DNA of 64,000 nucleotides from Oceanipulchritudo coccoides. GTDB taxonomy: Bacteria > Verrucomicrobiota > Verrucomicrobiia > Opitutales > Oceanipulchritudinaceae. The stretch lies in the NCBI RefSeq assembly GCF_010500615.1, contig NZ_JAAGNX010000002.1, forward strand, positions 176,990-240,989. The letters are read 5' to 3'. A model generated the notes under the pieces. The model had not been told where the DNA came from. It saw only the letters and a list, made by a program, of their open reading frames with translations, and ran no database searches. Each line of letters opens with the position of its first letter. Positions within the stretch are counted from its first letter, which is position 1. The position numbers and the translations under genes were made by a program. Below, one piece after another: positions 41,172-45,138 of the stretch.

Positions 41172-43262
41172 TTACGGATTCGGCTCGAGCTGATTCTTGA
41201 CGTGTTCCGGCTCGAAGAACCCGTGCAACTGGCGGATACGCGTTGGGTGGCGCATTTTGCGGAGTGCCTTGGCCTCAATCTGACGGATTCGCTCACGCGT
41301 CACATTGAACTGGCGCCCAACCTCCTCAAGCGTACGACTGTATCCATCCACAAGTCCGAACCGCAGGCTCAGCACACGACGTTCACGATCCGTGAGGGAA
41401 TCCAGAACATCCATGATTTTCTCCCTTAGAAGGGAGTAGGCCGTCATATCGTAAGGATTATCGGCTCCCTTATCCTCAATAAAGTCGCCGAAGTTGGTAT
41501 CATCGCTGTCGCCAACCGGGCTTTGCAGGGAAATGGGTTGCTGGGCCATTTTCATGATCTGTTGCACGCGCTCGACCGGAAGGTCCATCTCATCCGCTAC
41601 TTCTTCAGCGGTGGGCTCGTGTCCAAGCTCCTGCAACAACTGCTTCTGGACCTGCATGACCTTGTTGAGGGTTTCAATCATGTGGACAGGAATACGGATT
41701 GTCCGGGCCTGGTCGGCAATTGAGCGTGTGATGGCCTGCCGGATCCACCAAGTCGCATAGGTGCTGAACTTGTATCCACGACGGTATTCAAACTTCTCGA
41801 CCGCCTTCATCAGTCCCATATTGCCCTCTTGAATCAAATCAAGGAAGCTGAGGCCGCGATTTGTATACTTCTTGGCAATGGAAATAACCAGTCGGAGGTT
41901 GGCCTCGACCATTTCCGTCTTTGCCCGATGTGCACTGCGCATGCCCTTCCGGACCTCCTTGAGAATCTCGAGGAATTCCTGAGGCTCAACACGGAGCTGT
42001 TTATTGATTTCCGAAAGTCGGCGGCTGACCTTGTCCACATCAATAGCGCGGCCACGCCTTGTCTTGGCCCTGTCAGCAAGTTCAAGGCTGTCGACCATTG
42101 TGTGGATTTCCCGGATCATCGGTTCAAGGGTTTCAAGGTACTCCTCGAAAACCTTCAATTTGAAGCAGAACCGACGAAAAATTGGCTTCAACTCCGCTTG
42201 ATACTTATTGTAACGCTTGAGGATCTTTTCCTTCTCGGCCTTGGTCTTGGCTTTATTCAAGCTCTTCCAGGCCTCGTCCAGCTTCACCTCGATACTGTCG
42301 ATCTGCTCGATCAGTCGGGGGATCAACTTGAAGTACTGTTCCCGGCTTTCAATCTTCTTATCGAGCACTACGCGGTCAAAACGCTCATCCCGGTCAATCA
42401 GCTTCTGAGCCAATTCACGTTGGAAATTCTTGGTGAAGGCGATGGAAAATAGCGTGTCCATGGCGCGCATTTCCGCCTCTTCAATTCTCTTGGAAATCGC
42501 GACTTCTTCTTCCCGGGTAAGTAGCGGTACCTGTCCCATCTGCTTGAGGTACATCCGGACCGGGTCATCCAGAATATCCGACTGCGCATTGCGGACTTCC
42601 TCCTCGGTTGATTCTTCGAGCCGCTGTTTGTAACCTTCGACCTCTTCGGAATCGATGATGTCTACATCAAGATTCTCAAGGATTGTAATGACGTTCTCAA
42701 TTTCGGCCGGGGAGTCCACGGTTTCCGGGAGGTGCTCATTGATATCCTTGTAGGTCAGAAAACCCTGTTCCTTGGATTTCCGGATCAAGGCACGAATGCG
42801 ATCGTTCACATCCGCCGCCTTGTCCCCTTCAGATGCGGCGCCTTTGCCTTTGGCTTTTTTCCCTTCCTTTGCCGCTGCTTCGATCTTGCTTTCCGCAAGT
42901 TCCCGAAGCTTGGCCGCTACCTCTTTCGCAAGTGACTTTTTCTGAACAGCCTTCTTGGTCGCCTTTTTCGCAGCTGTTTTCTTGGTCGCCGTTGTTTTCT
43001 TGGTCGCCGCTTTTTTGACGGTTGTCTTTTTAGCGGCTGCCTTTTTGGCGACCTTTTTCGCCGGAGCCTTGCTGGCGGATTTCTTTACCGTCGCTTTTTT
43101 GGCAGATTTTTTCTTAGCCGGGGCCTTTTTAGCTGGAGTCGACTTTTTCGTGGTAGCCTTCTTCGCGGCTTTTTTCACTGTCTTCTTGGCTGGCGACTTT
43201 TTCTTGGCCGGGGAGGCTGTTTTCCGAGTGGCTTTCTTAGCAGGTGCTTTTTTTGCTGGCAT
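41172..43262 (-). CDS. rpoD: Primary RNA polymerase sigma factor with lysine-rich N-terminal tail
   Basis: 696 residues. Residues 1-110 are almost only K, A, T, P and S (44 lysines) in KKA/AKK patterns like histone H1 tails. Region 1.1 follows (about 152-215), then 1.2 ([22 protein letters not shown]), a non-conserved insert, region 2 ([39 protein letters not shown]), region 3 and region 4.2 ([20 protein letters not shown]). All core-binding and -10/-35 recognition parts are intact, so this is the housekeeping sigma70. It lies 22 bp downstream of dnaG, the classic dnaG-rpoD order, without rpsU. The tail probably contacts DNA or RNA; its role is unknown. Confidence 0.95.
42933..43262 (-). repeat. 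Low-complexity DNA encoding the RpoD tail
   Basis: About 330 bp of short imperfect repeats of AAG/GCC/ACC codons, seen on the plus strand as repeats like cttcttggtcgcc. They encode the lysine/alanine tail, and repeat-number differences between strains are likely. Confidence 0.8.
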
Positions 43263-43284: not shown

Positions 43285-45138
43285 CTACCCATTCAGGGAA
43301 ATGGATGGGAACTCCCCTTTCGTCATCTGAAGGAAGAGTTCGTTTTTCTGATTCATGAGGTCACGAATTTGGGTGAGATCATCCGGATTGTTGGCGCATT
43401 CTGAAATTTTCTGGTTAAGGACCCTGACCTGTTCGCGACAATAACGGCGGGCCAATGAAGCAATCGTCAGGTTGACAAAAGATTCCATATCGATGTGCGG
43501 GCGCTCATCCACAAGATAACGTGCAAAACAATCCCGCTCCTCATCTGTTTCCAGAAGCAGATGGATGTCTTCCGCCTTCTCAATATGATCCTCTAATGCC
43601 TGTGCCAGAATGAGTGAGAGTAGCTTACCTTCGATAATTTGGAGTTTAATCCATTGATGGTCAATGACCTGCGCAAGCGTTTCTGCCAATGTAACATTCT
43701 GTAAAACGGCCCAAAGTAAGTCGCCTTCCAGAATTGTCAATGCTTCGGGAGCCTTTGTTCCGTTATTGTTTTCTTTTCTTTCAACACGGGCGGGATTGGG
43801 TGGTTTAGACTCCCTTGCAAGCCTTTTGAAATCAGCCACCGCAGCCTCTCGAGAGACACCGGTCACCTGCACAGCTTCCTCAAAATACCCTTCACGAACA
43901 ACGGCACTGGGGCACTCCATAAGCATCTTGAAAAGGGTGTTCAAGGCATTGGCCCGTCCCTCTGGAGTGGGTTTGTCCCCCTGCAATAGCGAGTGACCGG
44001 CAAAATGCATTCCTGTCTGGGGGTCCAGTTGTTTGAGGCCTTCCGCACCTCTGGAGCGAAGAAAATCGTCGGGATCCTCTCCCTTGGGCAAAGCCAACAC
44101 CGTCACTTGAAGACGATTCTTGAAAGCCATCGGCAACAATCGGAGGACAGCCCTGACCCCCGCTTCATCACTGTCGAGGAGAACTGTAAGCTGATCGGTG
44201 TAGCGCTTAACAAGCGCAAGTTGTTCCTCGGTGACTGACGTTCCTTGGGGCGCGACCGCCTCAGTTACCCCACAGTCCCAACAACGCAAGGCGTCCAGTT
44301 GGCCCTCAACGAGCAATAGCCGGCCAGCCTGTTTGACTCCCTCACGGGCCCGGTCGAGGTTAAACAACAACTGGCTCTTCTTGAAGATGGGGGTCTCAGG
44401 AGAATTTATGTACTTGGCCTTCCACGAAGCATGATCGCGGGGTGTCACATCCAGCTGGCGTGCGGTAAAGGCGATGACCTGCCCTTGAATATCGCGAATG
44501 GGAACCATCAAGCGCCCCCGGAAGACAAAGAACCAGCGATCCAGATCAGCTGGCTGGCGGCCAGTGTAAAAGAGCCCGCTTGCGGCCAGAACATCCTGCT
44601 TGAAGCCTTTGCCCTTAAGCCTGTCGAGCAACTCACGGCTTTCGGGCGGGGAAAAGCCAATCCGGAATTCATCGGCCAGTTTGAGTGAAAACCCGCGCTG
44701 CTCGACCCAATAACGCCGAATCTCCTCAGCTTGAGGGTTCATTGCCAGAAAAGCCTCGTGATAGTAGTCCCGGGCATACTCGTGTACATCCAACAGGGCC
44801 TGCTTCATGCTTCGCACCTCTGGATCCGGGCCGGCCCCGCTTGCATAGCGAACCTCTATGCCAAAGCGTTCCGCGAGGGCCTCGACCGCTTCAGGAAATG
44901 TCAATTTCTCTGTCTCCTGAATAAAACGAATCCCGTCACCGGCAAGCCCGGTGGAATGGCATTTAAAAAAATTGCGCTCAGAGAGCACGTAAAATGACGG
45001 TGTTTTCTCCTGCGAAAAGGGGCTTAATCCACGCCAGTTCCGACCGGAACGCGTCAATTCGACATGCGGCCGGACAACATCGTAAAGCGGAATGGCCCGC
45101 ACTGCTTGAAGAGTCTCCTCAGAAAAGAAAGGCATCAA
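43285..45138 (-). CDS. dnaG: DNA primase DnaG with degenerate zinc-binding domain
   Basis: 617 residues, normal length. Order: N-terminal zinc-binding-type domain (1-100), RNA polymerase domain (about 110-400, with LADEFRIGFSP) including TOPRIM (LLLVEGQLDALRC, VLLDSDEAGVRAV, PKGEDPDDFL), and a C-terminal helicase-interaction region. The catalytic acidic residues look intact. Oddity: the usual Cys-His-Cys-Cys zinc ligands are Ser39, Ser42, Cys60 and Thr63, so only one is left, although spacing and neighbours (EKTPSF, FFKC) are conserved. It makes primers for replication. It is followed by rpoD. Confidence 0.95.
   Translation of the reverse strand: MMPFFSEETLQAVRAIPLYDVVRPHVELTRSGRNWRGLSPFSQEKTPSFYVLSERNFFKCHSTGLAGDGIRFIQETEKLTFPEAVEALAERFGIEVRYASGAGPDPEVRSMKQALLDVHEYARDYYHEAFLAMNPQAEEIRRYWVEQRGFSLKLADEFRIGFSPPESRELLDRLKGKGFKQDVLAASGLFYTGRQPADLDRWFFVFRGRLMVPIRDIQGQVIAFTARQLDVTPRDHASWKAKYINSPETPIFKKSQLLFNLDRAREGVKQAGRLLLVEGQLDALRCWDCGVTEAVAPQGTSVTEEQLALVKRYTDQLTVLLDSDEAGVRAVLRLLPMAFKNRLQVTVLALPKGEDPDDFLRSRGAEGLKQLDPQTGMHFAGHSLLQGDKPTPEGRANALNTLFKMLMECPSAVVREGYFEEAVQVTGVSREAAVADFKRLARESKPPNPARVERKENNNGTKAPEALTILEGDLLWAVLQNVTLAETLAQVIDHQWIKLQIIEGKLLSLILAQALEDHIEKAEDIHLLLETDEERDCFARYLVDERPHIDMESFVNLTIASLARRYCREQVRVLNQKISECANNPDDLTQIRDLMNQKNELFLQMTKGEFPSISLNG

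Follow-up and report, generated by a model that had tools for sequence, protein, structure and literature searches.

The DnaG primase of Oceanipulchritudo coccoides carries a conserved polar motif in place of its zinc ligands, a form that recurs in several bacterial phyla

The dnaG gene in a 64,000-nucleotide stretch of the Oceanipulchritudo coccoides genome (the window) encodes a DNA primase in which the Cys-His-Cys-Cys ligand set of the N-terminal zinc ribbon is absent, with Ser-Ser-Cys-Thr in its place. We consider it likely that this protein is the working replicative primase of the organism and that its ribbon, once held together by zinc, now does without metal while keeping its fold and its place in the protein. 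The original prediction, made from the sequence, had treated the loss as an oddity of one organism; instead, the loss belongs to a widespread alternative form that is found in several phyla.

Results

The window dnaG is intact apart from its zinc ligands

The minus-strand frame 45138..43285 is uninterrupted, and its product is a DnaG of ordinary length with every domain present (Table 1). It scored 349.2 bits against NCBIfam TIGR01391 (curated family cut-off 283.6) and matched the Pfam domains Zn_ribbon_DnaG, DNAG_N, Toprim and DnaB_bind, with the ribbon scoring 84.9 bits against PF01807 (cut-off 24.9). Judged from the sequence, the ATG at 45135 is a likelier start codon than the TTG, because relatives start with MP at that point; residue numbers here count the TTG as 1 unless ATG numbering is stated, and from the ATG each number is one lower. 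An rpoD-type sigma factor gene adjoins dnaG downstream, which is the usual housekeeping arrangement, and we therefore take the window dnaG to be the housekeeping copy. In addition, no second intact dnaG scored above the TIGR01391 cut-off in the window genome (3.52 Mb, 99.4% complete), a point that the original prediction had raised as a check; PF01807 matched two proteins there, the dnaG product and a primase-type protein of 987 residues.

Table 1. Features of the dnaG locus in the window.
Feature	Position	Strand	Remarks
dnaG, DNA primase	43285..45135	(-)	616 residues from ATG; 617 from TTG at 45138
N-terminal ribbon domain (zinc-binding in other DnaG)	44845..45123	(-)	approximately residues 6-98; PF01807 covers residues 15-99
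Ser39, at zinc ligand 1 (Cys)	45022..45024	(-)	codon reading and alignment
Ser42, at zinc ligand 2 (His)	45013..45015	(-)	codon reading and alignment
Cys60, at zinc ligand 3, retained; Asp in some other lost forms	44959..44961	(-)	codon and alignment
Ser62, at the zinc-knuckle Gly	44953..44955	(-)	codon reading and column comparison
Thr63, at zinc ligand 4 (Cys)	44950..44952	(-)	codon reading and alignment
rpoD-type sigma factor gene	41172..43262	(-)	sigma-70 regions 1.1 to 4; downstream of dnaG

The four residues that the original prediction had placed at the ligands, with three of the four lost, proved exact, and its description of the surrounding framework, the reading frame and the rest of the primase as intact was borne out as well. 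Its account of the ligand loss thus stood; it had missed the change of the knuckle Gly to Ser and the all-or-none pattern of the replacement described below. Lys59 directly precedes ligand 3 in the window protein.

Two side observations concern other proteins of this genome. At its N-terminus, the rpoD-type sigma factor is extended by some 140 residues rich in Lys and Ala, a stretch that weakly resembles the histone H1-like HC2 family (23.6 bits, under the cut-off of 40). The 987-residue primase-type protein of the same genome (locus L033, 627-3587 on the minus strand of G000:C3) has ribbon, DNAG_N and Toprim domains and reads S, T, C, S at the ligand positions, with the knuckle Gly retained; most of its counterparts in other Opitutales likewise read S, T, C, S (L358, L359 and L360), and one reads CHCC (L361).

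The replacement is all-or-none and widespread

A scan of the whole collection for the Ser/Thr motif returned at least 118 loci; since these are selected by trait, frequencies were taken from other samples. Translations of the scan loci revealed DnaG with the replaced site (the lost form) in Caulobacter, Brevundimonas, Asticcacaulis, Hyphomonas, Parvibaculum and Pelagibacteraceae, in Flavobacterium, Polaribacter, Aquimarina, Chitinophaga, Nevskia and many Opitutales, and in Saccharibacteria, one Kaiserbacteria MAG and one Bdellovibrionales MAG. One further MAG, labelled Marinimicrobia, holds a DnaG (L070) that is by eye clearly of the alphaproteobacterial type, and its contig is probably misbinned. 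The zinc-less primase motif was also present on 27 viral contigs (L556-L582), several of which carry the version with Asp.

Frequencies were read from 277 DnaG, one gene per genome, drawn blind to the trait and Verrucomicrobiota-heavy by design. Mobile-type primases and fragments (L002, L033, L358-L361, L245 and L271-L275), the four sample centres chosen by trait (G141-G144) and three short scan rows were left out; L038 and L121 gave no profile match. The sample held 153 CHCC proteins, 123 in which ligands 1, 2 and 4 were all replaced, and a single intermediate (S, H, D, T). The ligands are therefore lost all or none, and DnaG ribbons come in two discrete forms.

Both forms occurred in most of the groups sampled. 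With the centre of each sample set aside, we found 19 CHCC, 9 replaced and the one intermediate in Bacteroidota (30 of 31 genomes read), 24 CHCC and 5 replaced in Alphaproteobacteria (30 of 31), 23 CHCC and 3 replaced in the phylum of Saccharibacteria (27 of 29), and 24 CHCC and none replaced in Gammaproteobacteria (25 of 27). Within Opitutales, 87 of the 99 genomes read (out of 109) were replaced, and the 12 CHCC genomes all belonged to one family, f3. The rest of the class outside Opitutales gave 51 CHCC and 19 replaced; these 70 genomes, out of 118, were picked blind to state, although the loci taken first were those that resembled the window protein most closely. The family of the window organism showed the same state in the six other genomes read (G113, G132, G304, G317, G330 and G340). 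Relatives with all four ligands, which the original prediction had named as a possible pointer to an error, do exist (f3, 12 of 12 read), but no sign of error was found in the window gene.

The replacements form a fixed motif

The substitutions in the 124 non-CHCC proteins were narrowly defined. Ligand 1 was Ser in 122 and Thr in 2, ligand 3 was Cys in 108 and Asp in 16, and ligand 4 was Ser in 72 and Thr in 52, while ligand 2 varied among T, N, S, K, Q, A, H, G and R. Furthermore, the knuckle position was Ser in 121, Ala in 2 and Gly in 1 of these proteins, as against Gly in 151 of the 153 CHCC proteins. Ligands 1, 2 and 4 and the knuckle switched almost fully in each of six lineage groups, and no other column did so in all six (the rows include those of the trait-selected scan). 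Read from these alignments, the lost form is a fixed motif, Ser-x-x-any followed by [Cys/Asp]-x-Ser-[Ser/Thr], and not the outcome of random decay.

The site was exchanged in place, many times

When the ligand and knuckle columns were excluded, lost-form domains were nearest to their own lineage. For the lost forms of Alphaproteobacteria, the best identity to alphaproteobacterial zinc forms had a median of 0.61, versus at most 0.53 to the lost forms of other lineages, and the four gammaproteobacterial rows had 0.73 to their own zinc forms versus 0.57 to lost forms elsewhere. Because the non-ligand columns follow the lineage, the swap appears to have been made in place, repeatedly, in several phyla. 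By a quick method, trees of the catalytic core alone implied no fewer than 15 switches of state across 121 rows, and a fast tree of 359 rows implied 23; both counts are approximate, coming from quick methods and from rows enriched by the trait scan. A careful method gave 4 changes of state when applied to the class without Opitutales (52 rows). These many changes on core trees indicate that nearly the same exchange took place on many occasions.

If a single ancient zinc-free DnaG, or zinc-free domain, had spread horizontally, common descent would explain why the same motif is found in all of the phyla; a zinc-free form of ribosomal protein S4 is reported to have spread in that manner (PMC3087516). 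For DnaG we hold such a spread to be improbable: the core-only trees pair lost and zinc forms within each phylum, with 15 changes in 121 rows, and outside the five positions the domains resemble those of their own lineage, which also led us to reject the transfer of whole domains from one phylum to another. Exchange of short tracts within a lineage is possible.

Two families bear on the direction of change. The Opitutaceae-like family f3 (12 of 12 CHCC) was placed among lost-form families, and in a tree of RpoB and RpoC it was sister to the lost-form strain K14 (support 100/99). A history in which Opitutales lost the site once, f3 lying outside the lost forms, was compatible with the DnaG core in a careful tree (AU p 0.273), the quick core tree having missed a better tree in which the Opitutales lost forms are held together; the same history was rejected, at the borderline, by RpoB and RpoC (AU p 0.0412). 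On the RpoB and RpoC tree, the state of f3 is explained either by one loss together with one regain or by two to three losses, and we claim no regain for this family. In family f36, two genomes of genus g65 are CHCC (G089 and G131), and G089 was nested in a lost-form clade (AU p 0.0196, for groups named after the tree was seen), so that either one regain of the zinc site or about four parallel losses are possible. Gene conversion over a short tract, with a zinc form as donor, would leave the same pattern as point changes. Genus g65 and family f3 are thus possible candidates for regain. A broader and tentative reading, which we think somewhat doubtful, is that the DnaG ribbon is a two-state switch that has passed many times between a core built on zinc and one built on serine at five positions, hardly ever stopping at an intermediate, with the zinc site rebuilt in place at least once. 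In that case, zinc would serve bacterial priming as a structural component that can be replaced, and template reading would not require it.

The zinc-less domain is conserved and compatible with the ribbon fold

The ratio of domain identity to catalytic-core identity was 1.22-1.39 in lost forms versus 1.03-1.21 in zinc forms (four groups). The zinc-less domain is thus more conserved than the core, which points to continued selection on it. Around the site, S38, P39, F40, E43, P46, S47, F48 and G66 (ATG numbering) were invariant in 74 diverse lost forms, as were the catalytic E277, D281, D321 and D323 (ATG numbering; the Toprim Glu and Asp-x-Asp). Since the surroundings of the site are conserved, a zinc-less DnaG need not initiate primers differently.

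These data bear on a vestigial domain, one that lost zinc and template reading together and persists as a passive remnant, as in Twinkle. The lost ligands have been described as tied to DNA sensing in a review (PMC6163395), which would favour such a loss of function. We nonetheless regard a remnant as very unlikely, given that the lost-form domain surpasses the core in conservation, that its site is surrounded by invariant residues, and that the replacements are fixed instead of random.

An AlphaFold model built with lost-form sequences only as input had pLDDT values mostly between 86 and 95 across the ribbon domain; as AlphaFold learned from zinc forms and takes no account of metals, this confidence is weak evidence for stability in a metal-free state. 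Residues 2-108 of the model superposed on 1d0q with Z 15.1 and 1.7 A over 100 residues (second-look aligner), and Foldseek gave 1.2 A across 91 columns for the same pair. The only solved chains over the DnaG zinc domain that matched the window protein were 1d0q and 2au3. The model suggests that the zinc-less sequence is compatible with the zinc-ribbon fold, which is compatibility and not proof. Together with the conservation and the fixed motif, it fits the suggestion of the original prediction that the domain may hold together without metal.

Zinc economy as a possible contributor to the distribution

Zinc-free ribosomal proteins are listed as most common in Verrucomicrobiae, Alphaproteobacteria and Bacteroidetes (PMC3087516), and it is these same groups in which lost-form DnaG abounds. 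We found that the zinc motif of ribosomal protein L36 was lost in 31 of 36 genomes with lost-form DnaG versus 6 of 21 with CHCC DnaG (57 of 60 genomes parsed; kinship ignored). The mismatches run both ways: the L36 motif is kept despite a lost DnaG in families f15, f17, f20 and f25 and in Nevskia, and it is lost despite a CHCC DnaG in f3 (5 of 5) and G089. These mismatches weaken simple zinc economy as the cause of the DnaG change; zinc economy is plausible for the large groups but does not force the change. RpoC offers a further example of zinc-motif loss: its second zinc motif was found in none of 33 Opitutales proteins and in 5 of 5 outgroup proteins (L436-L474), and the first was found in 31 of 33 and 5 of 5, being missing in L450 (f49) and L452 (f50).

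Discussion

That the four ligands and the knuckle Gly have together given way to a conserved polar motif suggests how the ribbon might be held without zinc. In a Cys-x-Gly-Cys zinc knuckle, the first sulphur accepts backbone hydrogen bonds. The ligand-3 side chain of the lost form, Cys or Asp, may likewise accept hydrogen bonds from the backbone and the hydroxyls of the following Ser and Ser/Thr, so that an Asx/ST-type turn would take the place of the knuckle. Ser39, on the other hairpin, would complete the cluster at the place where zinc once joined the two, and the domain would still turn its conserved face (PFxxEKTPSF together with the residue preceding ligand 3) towards the template and the catalytic domain. 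Such a turn would predict the observed interchange of Cys and Asp at ligand 3 alongside a constant Ser62 and Ser/Thr63. We infer that the lost form binds no metal, relies on a hydrogen-bonded cluster and keeps its priming role, with a lower demand for zinc as the putative driver.

The retention of Cys at ligand 3 in 108 of 124 proteins speaks against the metal-free reading, and weak or shared metal binding at that position is possible. A site converted to another metal, with Ser, Thr and Asp as hard ligands, could draw on the Asp found at ligand 3 in 16 of 124 proteins and on the hydroxyl residues at the remaining positions. It has little probability in our judgement, since no ligand set is constant: ligand 3 is mostly Cys, and ligand 2 is free (Lys, Ala, Gly, Arg or Gln). 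The frequent occurrence of Lys, Ala, Gly and Arg at ligand 2 argues in particular against a new four-ligand site. Finally, a sequencing or assembly error, or a pseudogene, can be dismissed, as the original prediction had also held for a sequencing slip: nothing was found in its favour, the frame is open, and the same kind of replacement recurs in six relatives of the family and in 87 of the 99 Opitutales genomes read.

A review describes the three Cys and one His of DnaG as highly conserved and tied to DNA recognition (PMC6163395); close to half of our broad, Verrucomicrobiota-heavy sample lacks this site. No account of a zinc-less DnaG was recognised in the open-access literature, to which the search was confined, subscription papers and preprints lying outside it. 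DnaG is also a clear example of an essential enzyme whose metal site has been exchanged repeatedly and in a concerted way. The old question of what zinc does in primase also becomes directly testable, through natural zinc and zinc-free enzymes and the exchange of five residues, and tractable genera with lost-form DnaG include Caulobacter, Brevundimonas, Flavobacterium and Chitinophaga.

Among known primases, the zinc domains of 1d0q (Bacillus stearothermophilus) and 2au3 (Aquifex aeolicus) share with the window DnaG their fold, their position in the protein and the flanking framework. They differ at the site itself, 1d0q being a solved zinc domain and 2au3 reading C-H-C-C in the alignment, whereas the window DnaG reads S-S-C-T with Ser at the knuckle. 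In animal Twinkle, the zinc ligands are lost and the primase half is not known to be active. Twinkle and phage T7 gp4 have a DnaG-type primase region that is matched by fold; unlike in Twinkle, the catalytic residues of the window DnaG are intact. In the Clostridium difficile primase, a Lys adjoining the zinc motif is described as favouring 5'-d(CCC) starts (PMC5204125). Lys59 of the window DnaG matches this Lys and that of the Aquifex primase, but those two enzymes keep the zinc site.

A further parallel is with the ribosome. S4, L36, L31, S14 and other ribosomal proteins exist, like DnaG, in two discrete ribbon forms, the zinc-free one being termed C-minus, according to PMC3087516, which makes no mention of DnaG. 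For S4, that paper reports that the gene moved horizontally and that some genomes carry the two forms side by side, whereas the DnaG site appears to have been swapped in place. With only one dnaG, the window genome lacks a pair of forms that zinc supply could switch between. The best reading of the sequences is that the C-minus form, known before for ribosomal proteins, now appears in a replicative primase, which would extend the duality of zinc and non-zinc forms to the replisome.
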